This document shows, piece after piece, positions 1,729 to 6,510 of a DNA stretch of 48,051 nucleotides. The DNA is from a virus, in the IMG/VR virus record IMGVR_UViG_3300044833_000307, positions 1 to 48,051 of that record. The stretch is one strand, 5' to 3'. Numbering within the stretch: position 1 is the stretch's first letter; each line of letters starts with the position of its first letter. The notes under the pieces were generated by a model. That model was given only the letters and a program-made list of their open reading frames with translations. It did not search any database and had not been told where the DNA came from. The translations under genes were made by a program, and so were the position numbers.

Positions 1729-1805
1729 TGGCGCGCCCGGTGAGAGTCGAACTCACGTTCGCGAATTTAGAGTTCGCAGCTTTGGCCAGACTAAGCTACG
1801 GGCGC
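1729..1805 (-). tRNA. amber-reading (suppressor) tRNA, anticodon CUA
   Basis: A complete 77-nt cloverleaf with encoded CCA. The acceptor GCGCCCG (1805-1799) pairs with CGGGCGC (1739-1733), with discriminator G and CCA at 1731-1729. T8 and A9 are present. The D stem is GCTT/AAGC with a GG-containing loop. The anticodon stem is GCGAA/TTCGC with loop CTCTAAA, so the anticodon is CTA. The variable loop is GAAC, and the T arm is GTGAG, TTCGACT, CTCAC. CUA pairs with UAG. Discriminator G73 argues against tyrosine or leucine charging and is compatible with Gln, Trp, Asp or Asn; the amino acid is not decided here. It lies in the transcription unit of two genes that contain in-frame UAG (2545 and 3444). 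Confidence 0.95.
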
Positions 1806-1974: not shown

Positions 1975-2553
1975 TCAGAATTTAGCCACCATCCTTTTCC
2001 CGACCTTGGCCAACTGCTTGAGCTTGATCTTGAAGCCGTCGCTGTCAAGCTGCCCCAGGCGGTTGGCGTTGGAGTGGATTTCCGCGAGGCCCGTGAGAAC
2101 CAAGGACGGGGCCTCTTTGTGCAGCAAAAACGGCTCGATGGCGTCCCCCTTGACCGTGTGGGCCAGCATGTCCATGCGGATGAGTTCGCCGACCTGCCCG
2201 TCCTCCTGGGTCTCGGCGTAACGCATCCACGTGCGGTGGCTGGTTTCCGCGTGACCGGGGAAGTGCTGGCGGTTTTCCACATCCACCTCGCGACAAAAAG
2301 GCTTGCCACAGTCGTGGTACATCTGGTAGGTTCTCAAAATGTCAAGCGGCAACAACCGCTGGGCCAGTCCCGGATGCCCGACCCATTCGGGTAGACGCCA
2401 CTGCAAGTGCGTTGGAGTTCCTTGTGAAACATGTGCGTACAAATCGAGGAACCATGCGTGAACATCCAATCCGTGGTCCTTAACGGACCACGACTCCCAC
2501 TGCCAGCAGGTGCGCATCGCTTCGTCCAGTCTGTTCAGGTTTGCCTATGTCAT
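1975..2553 (-). CDS. HD-domain phosphohydrolase-like protein with in-frame UAG at codon 3
   Basis: The start ATG at 2553 overlaps the TGA of the preceding gene (ATGA) and has GGAGGAAGAAGAA directly upstream, the best ribosome binding site nearby. Codon 3 is TAG (2547-2545), after which the frame stays open to TGA at 1975: MT, amber, ANLNRLDEAMRTCWQWESW onwards, 192 codons. An HD-type metal site is suggested by YHDCGKP (H80, D81), HFPGH (H97, H101) and MDMLAH (D128, H132), the order seen in HD phosphohydrolases. If UAG were only a stop, translation would have to restart at ATG 2517, which has at best a weak GGA. The nearby CUA tRNA makes read-through the simpler reading. The substrate is unknown. 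Confidence 0.7.
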
Positions 2554-2717
2554 TTCTTCTTCCTCCATAAAGTTACAGCCCCGTGTTTTTTGCCGTGGCC
2601 GTATTCCCAATAAAAATACGCCGTCCTGCCGATTTTCAAGACCATGCGCCACGCCGGGAAATTGCTGAGCCCGATGCGCAGCCCGTCTTGCCACATGCAG
2701 TAGGGCGGGAACTTCAC
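2550..2717 (-). CDS. hypothetical protein, 55 aa, GTG start
   Basis: The GTG overlaps the TGA of the upstream 130-aa gene (GTGA). The sequence MKFPPYCMWQDGLRIG is followed by LSNFPAWRMVLKIGRTAYFY and a basic end (LWRKKK). It is rich in aromatic residues and looks like a compact beta fold. Its TGA overlaps the ATG of the HD gene (ATGA). These tight overlaps on both sides support its being real and support the HD start at 2553. Function unknown. Confidence 0.75.
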   Translation of the reverse strand: MKFPPYCMWQDGLRIGLSNFPAWRMVLKIGRTAYFYWEYGHGKKHGAVTLWRKKK

Positions 2718-3106
2718 CGCTTGCCCCAGTTCGGGTATTGCTCCCAGCCGGGGTTGTCGAACAGCGCCTTGAGTTTGTCAGGGCACTTTTCAAGCTTCCT
2801 TTGCCACGGCCGCATCTTGCGCTTGCGGGCGACGAAAAGCTCCGGCGCGTATAGAATGGTGAAGTGGTCCTTGTCCGCCGCGTCCAACGCCGCGCACTCC
2901 TCGAACGCTCTGCGGAACTCGGGGATGTCTTCTTCGGCGATTTCCTCCGCGTCCGCTCCGGGGTAGAAGAAGTCGTTGCAGTTAACGAGGAAGGTGACGG
3001 GGTCGTACCGCGGGGCGTCGCACCTCCACCAGAACGCCTCGCAATGGTCGTGCTCCGAGGCTATGGCCAGCAGTTCAAGCACTGCACCGGGGTTCTTAAT
3101 CGGCAT
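2714..3106 (-). CDS. hypothetical protein, 130 aa
   Basis: Start ATG at 3106 with GGAGGACCGA upstream. The protein has an acidic central part and aromatic clusters (CEAFWWRCDAPRYD, then VTFLVNCNDFFYPGADAEEI) typical of a phage accessory protein family I have seen only as unnamed. It overlaps the end of the PTH2-like gene by 11 bases and shares a GTGA overlap with the next gene, so it is inside the same operon. Confidence 0.8.
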   Translation of the reverse strand: MPIKNPGAVLELLAIASEHDHCEAFWWRCDAPRYDPVTFLVNCNDFFYPGADAEEIAEEDIPEFRRAFEECAALDAADKDHFTILYAPELFVARKRKMRPWQRKLEKCPDKLKALFDNPGWEQYPNWGKR

Positions 3107-3545
3107 TCGGTCCTCCTTGTTGCCAAGTCTTGTACAAGAACATGGCCTTGCGCTGCTTGGAATTCTCGATGGGGACGGTGGCGATGGCGCTCAAACCCAT
3201 GTCGAAGTCCGGCTCGACAAAAGCTTCGTGCGCGATCTTGTAGCGGATCAGTCTCTGGATGGCGGCTTCGAGGGCTGGCTTGTCGGGGAGTCCGATGACG
3301 ACCACGGAAGGAGTTTCGTCCGAAGAGACTTCGGCTTTTCTTGCGAGGCGGGACGCCATCTGGAAGGTGGCGTGATTGGTTTGAACCAACTGCTGCGCGA
3401 GAGGGAGGTCCTGCCGCACGAACACGTAAAAATAAGGGTTTACCTACGCCACGTCTGTGTCTTTCCTGCCAGGATCGGGCAGCACGTCGGTCGTATAAAT
3501 GTCATACTGGCTTTTCTTGGCCGGTCCCATGATGGTGTCTTTCAT
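3096..3545 (-). CDS. PTH2-like peptidyl-tRNA hydrolase-family protein with in-frame UAG at codon 34
   Basis: The ATG at 3545 has GAGGACAAT upstream and begins MKDTIMGPAKKSQYDIYTTD. Codon 34 is TAG (3446-3444). The same frame then continues VNPYFYVFVRQDLPLAQQ and ends in TAA (149 residues). The part after UAG matches the PTH2 fold: first strand and turn YVFVRQDL, helix with QTNHA, and a late FDMGLSAIAT segment like the D-x-G-x-T signature. PTH2 enzymes release peptides from peptidyl-tRNA. Starting after the UAG would require a GTG (3425) with no ribosome binding site and would cut into strand 1. Reading UAG as sense therefore gives the intact fold. It is the first gene behind the promoter at 3559-3587 and is co-directional with the CUA tRNA. 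Confidence 0.75.
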
Positions 3546-4343: not shown

Positions 4344-6125
4344 TCAATTCAGACGCCAATAAACTCCGCCAGAAGGAAGCTCGTTGTAGTTGCCGTCGTA
4401 GGACGACAGGAAATGCCCCATGCCGTCGGCCGCCACGAAATCGGTGGCCGCCTCCGTCTCGTCGATCCCCGCTATGTCGATGGCGCGCTTCAACGTCTCG
4501 TCGCCGTAAATGCCTTCGAGGTATTCGATGGGGTCTTTCAAAAGTTTGTCCACCATCTCTTCGACCCATTGGTCGCTCGGCGGCCCGTCTTGTTCGGTCA
4601 GCGACATCTGTGCGTCGCCCTCTTCCTCCTCCCGGATGCCTTCGGGCGTCCATTCCCCGTAGGAGTCCGGGGATTCCCGCACCATCTCCTCCACGTCGGG
4701 GCGCAACGCGTCCCGCAGCCGCTCTTTGTCTATGTAGCTCTCCAGCATGCTTTGGGTGAACATCTCGGGCTCGGATTGCAATTGCTGCTCCACCATGACG
4801 ATGGCTAGCTGCTCGGCGGAGTCGTAGCTCGGGGCCACCACGTATTCCTTGTCCCCGAAGCTGACGGTGGCGAAGTTCGAGGCCTCCTTCCAGTTCCACA
4901 TGCCGGGGGCGACTTCCAGCCCATGCGCGCCCAGGTAATCCTCCTTCTTGAGGAACTCCATGACCGCCGTCACGGTCTCGGGGTCGTCGATGGCGGCCTC
5001 CACTTCCGTGCGGACGCCCAGTTCCTCGTTCTCGCTTGGCTCCGGCTCGGGTTCCGGGGCCTTGTTTTCGGGGACGGGGTCGGTGGCCGGGTGGGTGCGT
5101 TCGAGATTCGGGTCCGGCGGGTCGCCGGGTGCCGCGGTCTTGCTGGCGGTCACGGGCGGAGCGCCGAGCAAATCATTGATGGTGTTTACGCCCCCGCCCC
5201 CTTTGATGACCAGCTTCAAACCCTCCGGGGGAGGGAACTTCTCGATGAATTGCTTGAGGCGTTCGTCCGTGTGGCGGTTCGACCTGTATTTGATGTCTAT
5301 GCTGCCCGCCCCATCGGGGTCGAAATAAATCGCGCCCTGCTGGAAGGCCGTTTCCGTGTCGGCGATCTCCGGGGTGGCGTTGGAGTTCGGTTGCAGCCAG
5401 CCGCCGTAGCGCCACAGCATCTCGGGGTTGAAGCCGTGGGCGGCGGTGTGCGCGGAGGCGGCCATTTGATCCAAGTATAATTTTTCCATTTCCTCTCCCT
5501 CCGACGCCATCAGGGGGTCGGTTTTGCGGCGGTAGCGGCTTAGCCCGAGGTTTTCCTTGGGCGCTCCATCGATCCTGCGGCGGTTTCCCGGTTCGAACGC
5601 TTGCTGCATGTCCATCCCATCGACGCCGAGGTTTTCCACCCGCACGGCGTCCTCGAAGGGGCAGGCTTCCTCCCACAACTCGGGCTTGTTCTCCAAGTCG
5701 GGGACCTTGCTCCAGAACTCGTGGCCCTCGGGGACATCCGGGGCGACGACGAGGTACTTGTGGACTTTGGCGGCGATCTTTGAGGAAGCTTCACGGCCCC
5801 CGGCGGCCGAAGGGGTCAAATACCAACGCATCTGCTTCTGCTTGATGAAACCCTTCTCCTTGAGGCGGGTGACGGCGGCCCATGAATTGGTGCTGTACTT
5901 CGCGCCAGCAAACAGGGTTTTCTCGATTTCGCCCGTGGTCATCGGGCGCTGGCGGAGGGCTTGGAGAATCTTGTCTTCGTCGGGGTCGCCAGTGGTCGTG
6001 AGGAGCATGGATGTCTTTTCGTGCGCCGCCACCGCCGCCAGGGCGGCTTTGTTGACTCTGGCGGCGTTGCAGCGAATCTCGAACTTGTCAGCGGCGGTGA
6101 GGGCGTCTTTGCGGATGTCGTCCAT
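4344..6125 (-). CDS. large hypothetical protein with N-terminal winged-helix-like region, 593 aa
   Basis: The ATG at 6125 has GGAGCCCACC upstream. Residues about 50-115 (DKILQALRQRPMTTGEIEK, then AVTRLKEKGFIKQ and a basic hairpin ending WYLTP) have the order of a winged helix-turn-helix. A middle domain has repeated aromatic/acidic segments. A proline- and glutamate-rich linker (about 335-380) leads to a strongly acidic C-terminal half of about 200 residues with helices. The shape suggests a DNA-binding or host-takeover protein; no enzyme motif is visible. It lies between the tmRNA terminator and the small gene at 3980. Confidence 0.7.
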   Translation of the reverse strand: MDDIRKDALTAADKFEIRCNAARVNKAALAAVAAHEKTSMLLTTTGDPDEDKILQALRQRPMTTGEIEKTLFAGAKYSTNSWAAVTRLKEKGFIKQKQMRWYLTPSAAGGREASSKIAAKVHKYLVVAPDVPEGHEFWSKVPDLENKPELWEEACPFEDAVRVENLGVDGMDMQQAFEPGNRRRIDGAPKENLGLSRYRRKTDPLMASEGEEMEKLYLDQMAASAHTAAHGFNPEMLWRYGGWLQPNSNATPEIADTETAFQQGAIYFDPDGAGSIDIKYRSNRHTDERLKQFIEKFPPPEGLKLVIKGGGGVNTINDLLGAPPVTASKTAAPGDPPDPNLERTHPATDPVPENKAPEPEPEPSENEELGVRTEVEAAIDDPETVTAVMEFLKKEDYLGAHGLEVAPGMWNWKEASNFATVSFGDKEYVVAPSYDSAEQLAIVMVEQQLQSEPEMFTQSMLESYIDKERLRDALRPDVEEMVRESPDSYGEWTPEGIREEEEGDAQMSLTEQDGPPSDQWVEEMVDKLLKDPIEYLEGIYGDETLKRAIDIAGIDETEAATDFVAADGMGHFLSSYDGNYNELPSGGVYWRLN

Positions 6126-6164
6126 GGTGGGCTCCTACCATAAGGTTCTGATAGACTGTCCCCG

Positions 6165-6207
6165 AAAACAAAAACGCCCGCGGTCAAAGAATCTTGAGGG
6201 CGGGCGT
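6165..6207 (-). terminator. Rho-independent terminator of the tmRNA
   Basis: On the minus strand ACGCCCGC (6207-6200) pairs with GCGGGCGT (6181-6174) around an 18-base loop, followed by TTTTGTTTT. It directly follows the tmRNA coding piece. Confidence 0.85.
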
Positions 6208-6475
6208 CTTGCCGTGTTGAGGAACTCAGGCACGGCCTGAGGCTACCTTAAGCGGCAGCGGCCATTGCAAGAGGAGCAGTGGCGTTTATTGGTTTTGTTC
6301 ATTTACGGGAGTTTACTCCCCGGCCCGTGTGCATCCCACGCTTGCAGTCCGTCGAAACCAATTCGGCCCCGCAGAAGTGATACGGGGTAAATGGTGGAGC
6401 CGGGGGTAATCGAAACCCCGTCCGAAAAGCCGCTTAGGTGCCGTGACCTTCCTTGCGGAAGGGAGTTACGAGCGT
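6174..6475 (-). ncRNA. ssrA: circularly permuted (two-piece) tmRNA
   Basis: In transcription order the acceptor piece comes first. It has a CCTTCC/GGAAGG hairpin with a GCAA loop, TTTTCGGACGGGG, T-loop TTCGATT, then CGGCTCC, A, CCA ending at 6392. A 21-nt intervening segment (6391-6371) follows. The coding piece starts at 6370 with GGGGCCG and GGTTTCGACGG, the classic tmRNA 5' end. GGGGCCG pairs with CGGCTCC including the usual G-U at position 3. A tag frame, probably GCC (6283) to TAA (6248), reads ATAPLAMAAAA and ends in the small hydrophobic residues expected of a protease tag. After it comes an H-type pseudoknot (6241-6212: CTCAGG, loop CCGTG, CCTGAG, then CACGG). A terminator closes it. 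This order is the permuted form. The resume codon is inferred. Confidence 0.93.
6248..6283 (-). other. tmRNA tag-peptide reading frame
   Basis: Inside the tmRNA coding piece the frame ending at TAA 6250-6248 reads back as A-A-A-A-M-A-L-P-A-T-A. The likely resume codon is GCC after AATAAAC. An upstream TGA in this frame limits the tag to at most 17 codons. The alanine-rich hydrophobic end fits a ClpXP-type degradation signal. Confidence 0.75.
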
Positions 6476-6481
6476 ACCTGT

Positions 6482-6510
6482 ATAATACTTCAAAAGACTG
6501 GATTTTGCAA
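6482..6510 (-). promoter_or_regulatory. sigma70-type promoter of the tmRNA
   Basis: TTGCAA (6510-6505, 4 of 6) is followed after 17 bases by TATTAT (6487-6482, 5 of 6) on the minus strand. The expected start is near 6475, just before the acceptor piece. The -35 box begins right after the stop of the 374-aa gene. Confidence 0.75.

Follow-up and report, generated by a model that had tools for sequence, protein, structure and literature searches.

In a 48,051-nucleotide stretch of viral DNA (the window; IMG/VR record IMGVR_UViG_3300044833_000307, positions 1 to 48,051), a gene for an HD-domain protein carries an in-frame UAG as its third codon and is followed by a gene for an amber suppressor tRNA. 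Judging from comparative sequence analysis, and in the absence of expression data, we consider it highly probable that a phage using the standard genetic code here employs a dedicated suppressor tRNA that gates a conserved module of putative tRNA-acting proteins. It is very likely, in particular, that the in-frame stop is decoded as sense by the phage suppressor, suppression during infection being inferred. The proposed target of the suppressor, with anticodon CUA or, in some relatives, UCA, is a module of two genes, HD and PTH2 (a peptidyl-tRNA hydrolase homologue), which would be its main or only recurrent target, the matching stop interrupting at least one of the two, usually at codons 2-5. 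Without the charged suppressor, the ribosome would halt after one to four residues, yielding almost no product; with it, the ribosome would continue and the protein would be made.

A stop codon at the start of the HD-domain gene

The HD-domain gene occupies positions 1975..2553 on the minus strand and begins with ATG (2553-2551), ACA and TAG (2547-2545), after which the frame stays open to a TGA at 1975, for a product of 192 amino acids if UAG is sense. The original prediction had pointed to a Shine-Dalgarno (SD) sequence ahead of ATG 2553, an ATGA overlap with the preceding ORF and a frame running through the UAG at codon 3 into an HD domain, and each of these is confirmed. The ribosome-binding site, GGAGGA (2561..2566, minus strand), lies 7 nt from the ATG, with a calculated anti-SD duplex energy of -9.3 kcal/mol; an energy of -8 is reached by 6.6% of the 1190 ATGs in the window. 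The overlapping ORF is a small one of 55 amino acids (2550..2717, minus strand) that extends from GTG 2717 to a TGA at 2552-2550, and the minus-strand reading of the HD gene is open for 192 codons. When both strands of the whole 48 kb window were scanned for an SD sequence followed by ATG, at most seven codons, TAG and at least 70 open codons, the HD gene was the sole match. A tblastn search with the window HD protein matched 23 phage records in alignments that often start at query residue 5-7; thus, the stretch between the UAG and Met13 belongs to the HD protein. The UAG (2545..2547) is conserved in kind across relatives.

A second gene that was absent from the original prediction, the PTH2 homologue (3096..3452, minus strand), is gated like the HD gene and is its upstream partner. 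An in-frame UAG (3444..3446, minus strand) directly precedes the PTH2 domain, and the start is ambiguous, either GTG 3452, with UAG as codon 3, or ATG 3545, with UAG as codon 34. Between the two genes lies an ORF of 130 amino acids (2714..3106, minus strand). The tRNA with anticodon CUA (1729..1805, minus strand; Rfam tRNA, 63 bits) starts 169 nt beyond the HD stop codon. The window also encodes a permuted, two-piece tmRNA (6157..6484, minus strand; predicted tag ATAPLAMAAAA), which is a possible functional partner, its membership in the module being only inferred. None of ten minus-strand ORFs in window positions 2714-48007 (nine large ones of up to 1128 amino acids and the 130-amino-acid ORF) matched a PHROGs family.

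Recurrence of stop-interrupted HD and PTH2 genes

Viral loci were gathered by profile search (the best 80 of 107 for HD, and 57 for PTH2), and all six frames of 147 loci were scanned, the stop codons being masked throughout; one locus that is a piece of the window (L002) was excluded from all counts. The scan produced 247 matches that collapsed into 160 clusters at 90% identity, 69 of HD and 91 of PTH2. We applied a strict rule, under which the closest upstream in-frame stop must have an ATG no more than 6 codons before it. Among the 69 HD clusters, the stop was UAG in 42, UGA in 3 and UAA in none; among the 91 PTH2 clusters, the respective counts were 57, 1 and 0. For comparison, 1747 other ORFs of the 110 non-redundant loci gave UAG 29, UGA 58 and UAA 62, and the 29 UAG cases include at least two canonical PTH2 genes missed by the profile (L017 and L050). 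Conservation of the UAG in relatives, which the original prediction had named as a check, is thus borne out, and on these sequence counts a stop at the start of HD and PTH2 genes is far beyond chance (42/69 and 57/91 versus 29/1747). The gated UAG sits at the third or fourth codon in 28 of the 42 HD cases and 47 of the 57 PTH2 cases. Clusters at 90% identity are not equivalent to independent events, and fused genes were counted as both HD and PTH2 even though one gate precedes the two domains, which leaves the counts for the two families partly dependent on each other.

Per locus, a gate was called when the stop lay at the beginning of HD or PTH2 or within either gene (strict, relaxed or internal). 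Of the 110 non-redundant loci, 91 are UAG-gated, 3 are UGA-gated and 16 have no stop in the genes found; a tRNA-CUA is nearby in 10 of these 16, and at least one of the ungated loci, L013, has a further PTH2, of canonical type, that is gated at another place in the locus. No recurrent third gated family was found in the loci. In-frame ORF pairs split by a single stop are scarcely enriched for UAG (56/674, compared with 193/2693 for UAA and 107/1761 for UGA), and we therefore do not claim general internal readthrough.

Agreement between stop codon and suppressor anticodon

The gating stop agreed with the suppressor anticodon in all 68 informative loci, with UAG paired to CUA in 65, UGA paired to UCA in 3 and no discordant case. 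Searches of whole records for tRNA patterns gave many chance matches, and suppressors were counted only if confirmed by ARAGORN; 14 suppressor entries from other parts of the record or from its twin were added to the per-locus tally by hand. The UGA gates are found in both genes of L066 and in the HD genes of L015 and L018. The tRNA-UCA genes in the records of these three loci number two, one and two, respectively, and none of the three records matches the tRNA-CUA pattern; conversely, no credible tRNA-UCA was detected in any UAG-gated locus within the stretches covered. In the HD tree, UGA arose at least twice, L066 falling inside a UAG clade (99/91) and L015 grouping with L018 separately. 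UGA, like UAG, is still an ordinary terminator in these loci. Some ARAGORN calls were set aside: the tca call in L045 was dropped by hand for a loop without U33, and the tta calls in L001 and L122, which also lack such a loop, were not used.

No tRNA-CUA was found in 26 UAG-gated loci; many of these are fragmentary, and ARAGORN overlooks some tRNA-like genes whose D-arms are odd. In three UAG-gated records otherwise devoid of tRNA-CUA (L150, L152 and L154), ARAGORN missed tRNA-like sequences that combine an anticodon loop reading CTCTAA and an intact T-arm with an unusual D-arm. No other tRNA anticodon is as frequent in the loci as CUA (79/608), and the median distance from tRNA-CUA to the module is 1.0 kb versus 4.5 kb for the 529 other tRNAs. 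The discriminator bases, which we inspected for the amino acid carried, are variable among 86 suppressors; there are no expression data for the full protein, nor data on the residue inserted.

A purine after a stop codon favours suppression. A purine follows the gated UAG (position +4) in 99 of 107 cases and T in none, compared with 85 purines after 196 ordinary UAG terminators, and the excess persists relative to the 60% of purines at the first position of codons 4-6 of other ORFs. This bias would be compatible with selection for readthrough, although the significance of both the +4-base and the tRNA-distance contrasts is overstated because clusters are not independent events. Conservation of the stop, its covariation with the suppressor anticodon, the bias at +4 and the neighbouring tRNA(CUA) all support the claim of the original prediction that the UAG is read as sense; the on/off control that the prediction also put forward is an inference.

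The HD and PTH2 proteins

Assignment of the window gene to the HD family, already made in the original prediction, proved correct: Pfam HD (PF01966) is matched by four of nine HD homologues, though not by the window protein itself, and the structural model agrees. Pfam and PHROGs searches with the window HD protein alone gave no function. The model, built from a 57-sequence alignment, has a pLDDT of 97.4 and a pTM of 0.92, with helix 1 spanning residues 3-15. Residues H80, D81, H101, D128 and H132 are invariant in the alignment, and H27 and H97 nearly so; any assignment of metal binding among these His and Asp residues is our assumption. The best-matching solved structures, the five entries PDB 3wfo-3wfs (Z 14.2-14.8 over 161-163 residues, rmsd 3.0-3.2), all represent one tRNA-processing enzyme, called poly(A) polymerase by the depositors, of which the HD-like domain is aligned; the next unrelated structure scores Z 11.2. 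The sequence profile also supports a match to the poly(A) polymerase family (E 2.6e-4). Thus, the HD domain of the tRNA nucleotidyltransferase/poly(A) polymerase family shares both fold (Z 14.8 over 162 residues) and sequence profile with the phage protein, but the latter lacks the polymerase part, and its activity is only conjectural. By fold and conserved His and Asp residues, the window gene belongs to the HD-domain phosphohydrolase superfamily, phosphohydrolase activity being an inference.

For PTH2, PF01981 is matched by seven of ten alignment members, the window member not being matched on its own, and the PTH2 profile matches the solved Pth2 chains 24bt and 2zv3. The lysine of the GK motif of PTH2 is catalytic. 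In the divergent type, glutamine occupies the column of this lysine (Q20, invariant in the alignment), so that the window gene is a PTH2 homologue but not a demonstrated hydrolase. Canonical, GK-type PTH2 genes are gated in L013, L017, L050 and L251.

Stop-interrupted modules in individual phages and bacterial contigs

HD and PTH2 are encoded separately or fused in either order. Among HD genes, those of phages XacN1 and CM1 start with Met-Lys-UAG and that of LR745206 with Met-Asn-Thr-UAG, and in XbC2, CBB and BF the UAG is at HD codon 47. In these last three phages, the PTH2 genes start with Met-Ala-His-UAG, Met-Ala-Gln-UAG and Met-Thr-His-UAG, respectively; the PTH2 starts are Met-His-UAG in L001 and Met-Leu-UAG in Arash, and the PTH2-HD fusion of pT24 starts with Met-Lys-UAG. 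Public annotations of XbC2 (L003), CBB (L004), XacN1 (L007) and BF (L010) split, truncate or omit HD and PTH2, a misannotation caused by the stop codons. Acinetobacter phage ME3 has Met-Thr-UAG, with a tRNA-CUA about 0.5 kb away, and LR756511, LR756500, LR756501 and LR756504 are also gated. In LR756501, a 735 kb phage (L243, about 5000-5260), PTH2 has UAG as codon 3 and a second UAG within the domain, and two neighbouring tRNA-CUA genes lie downstream.

In mycobacteriophages, PTH2 is preceded by ATG-UAG-GTG (Breeniome, Cane17) or GTG-UAG-GTG (Myrna, Phabba, ScoobyDoobyDoo), with a tRNA-CUA no more than 0.4 kb away in all five; restart at the GTG directly past the stop is possible in these genes. 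No gate was found in the PTH2 genes of Hallingskeid, LR745208 and CBB_392, the last of these being one of two PTH2s in CBB, a canonical ungated one and a divergent gated one. Klebsiella phage RaK2, with a UAG 5 codons before the annotated start and no start codon evident ahead of it, was left unclassified.

A search of a bacterial genome collection yielded 7 loci. Three of these, on Obscuribacterales and cyanobacterial MAG contigs (L246-L248; 47-51% identity), have Met-Leu-UAG or Met-Thr-UAG and a tRNA-CUA directly downstream, as in the window. In L251, PTH2 is gated and a UAG also occurs within HD, and in L249 and L250 there is no UAG near the HD start. The HD homologue of L249, apparently free of a stop close to the start, is on a very large plasmid record, a 1.06 Mb contig of Pseudomonas serbica titled plasmid unnamed1. 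In Psychromonas sp. SP041 (L252, about 5990), the terminal UAG of PTH2 is in frame with HD, such that readthrough would produce a PTH2-HD fusion.

Restart and genome-wide recoding

An alternative to readthrough is that the true start of the HD gene is ATG 2517, with ATG-ACA-UAG forming a two-residue minigene that couples translation to restart. Start-stop minigenes with a regulatory effect exist, Met13 (ATG 2517) is in frame, and in nearly all gated HD genes the stop is followed, 5-14 codons on, by a Met in the same frame. However, the anti-SD energy at ATG 2517 is only -3.0 kcal/mol, and Met13, invariant in 57/57 aligned HD sequences, lies within helix 1 of the model, most of which a product starting there would lose. 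Furthermore, PTH2 is gated identically, and ATG, GTG and TTG are all absent between the stop and the PTH2 domain in 53 UAG and 1 UGA of the 91 clusters, so that in these 54 a full domain cannot be produced by restart; Stenotrophomonas phage CM1 (L006) likewise lacks any of these codons between the UAG and the HD core. Restart also does not predict that the type of stop tracks the anticodon. We regard restart as very improbable, in line with the original prediction, which had found little support for it.

Recoding of UAG as an amino acid throughout the genome, as in code 15, can hardly be entertained: the phage does encode a tRNA(CUA), the cognate suppressor expected under that code, but the other feature, UAG as sense in many genes, is not met, given that UAG terminates 4 of the 26 large background ORFs of the window and is absent in frame from its ORFs of 1295-1663 codons, remains an ordinary terminator of 196/1747 ORFs in the 110 loci and, in XacN1 (336,800 of 384,670 bases), follows an ATG within 6 codons in 5 of 499 ORFs, the HD-PTH2 fusion being the only SD-supported case. 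Sequencing error cannot account for a UAG or a UGA that recurs across dozens of unrelated records.

Possible purposes of the proposed gate

If the UAG is, as we propose, read through by the suppressor, the likeliest purpose, which is inferred by analogy and held only tentatively, is a closed loop: the amount of working suppressor, or the extent of termination failure, would set the level of proteins acting on tRNA or peptidyl-tRNA. We favour such a loop because both folds bind or process tRNA acceptor ends. Its logic would be comparable to that of release factor RF2 (prfB), which is autoregulated by a frameshift at an in-frame UGA: in both cases, a stop near the gene start would sense decoding versus termination and set the level of a translation-system protein. 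RF2 differs in relying on a frameshift and a release factor rather than a dedicated suppressor tRNA, and for the window phage the loop is not shown. Specifically, HD and PTH2 may have the suppressor tRNA, or the peptidyl form of it, as their substrate, such that strong suppression would be self-limiting and ordinary UAG terminators would be spared. These genes are the only recurrent targets in the loci, both folds belong to enzymes of tRNA ends, and UAG remains in use as a terminator, but biochemical evidence is lacking and the divergent PTH2, with glutamine in place of the GK lysine, may not be a hydrolase; we put the probability of this feedback somewhat below one half.

Two close rivals on the question of purpose, both likewise inferences, are a rescue response to readthrough and a checkpoint of tRNA integrity. 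Under the first, suppression drives ribosomes past stops, and the module (PTH2, HD and often tmRNA) would be a readthrough-induced rescue kit sensed by the stop codon. A tmRNA is present inside 24 of the 110 loci, the window included, and a role in ribosome rescue has been proposed for a PTH2 of jumbo phages from the same protein family, in a paper whose main text, as far as it was accessible to a word search, lacks the terms 'suppressor' and 'stop codon' (PMC7824862). The other 86 loci, however, show no tmRNA in the stretch covered, and HD has no known rescue role, so we rate rescue as unlikely, if still a serious contender. Under the second, the gate would signal that the tRNAs of the phage are still whole and aminoacylated, for instance when a tRNA-cleaving defence attacks them, with the module timed after tRNA synthesis. 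The module and tRNA(CUA) are indeed located in tRNA clusters of tRNA-rich phages, but the link to a defence system is conjectural, with no data on one, and a checkpoint appears rather improbable.

Returning to readthrough as a whole, its broadest form would be a private decoding channel, natural and widespread, in which the suppressor is kept solely to unlock the HD/PTH2 module, the arrangement becomes a self-adjusting loop with the stop as sensor of the state of suppression or termination, and codon and anticodon evolve in concert, UAG/CUA giving way jointly to UGA/UCA. We give this combined interpretation only slightly less than an even chance.

Relation to known systems and implications

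Phage suppressor tRNAs and stop-codon recoding are already known. In crAss-like and Lak phages (codes 15 and 4), a phage suppressor tRNA reads an in-frame stop, as proposed here, and gating of a late gene set has been suggested (PMC7886860, PMC7162821, PMC13037316; this comparison is limited to the accessible parts of these papers). In those phages, however, the codon occurs in many, mostly late genes, whereas in the present case the code is standard and the stop is found in one small module, usually at codons 2-5, in phages of many hosts. A synthetic feed-forward leak damper, in which an in-gene stop combined with a controlled suppressor tRNA gives a tight off state and a conditional on state, has been engineered in E. 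coli (PMC7969014, according to the portion available); the phage module appears to be a natural, widespread version of this device.

Large phages without recoding carry suppressor tRNAs for which no target was found in the available text of two reports: the XacN1 paper describes two suppressor tRNA genes and 18 amber stops read through, with no target (PMC5852040), and the RsoM2USA paper merely counts UAG triplets (PMC8504454). We recognised no description of UAG-gated PTH2 or HD genes in the open-licence PubMed Central literature, as far as its text was accessible. With that same restriction, what appears to be new is a standard-code genome with a suppressor for one conserved module, the two co-evolving.

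The HD/PTH2 module provides a proposed target and a testable reason for the orphan suppressor tRNAs of phages whose hosts span Enterobacteriaceae, Xanthomonas, Acinetobacter, Tenacibaculum and mycobacteria. The gate conceals these genes from annotation, and the mycobacteriophages offer a convenient laboratory system. If the proposal is true, these phages would possess a natural gene switch that consists of one tRNA and one codon.
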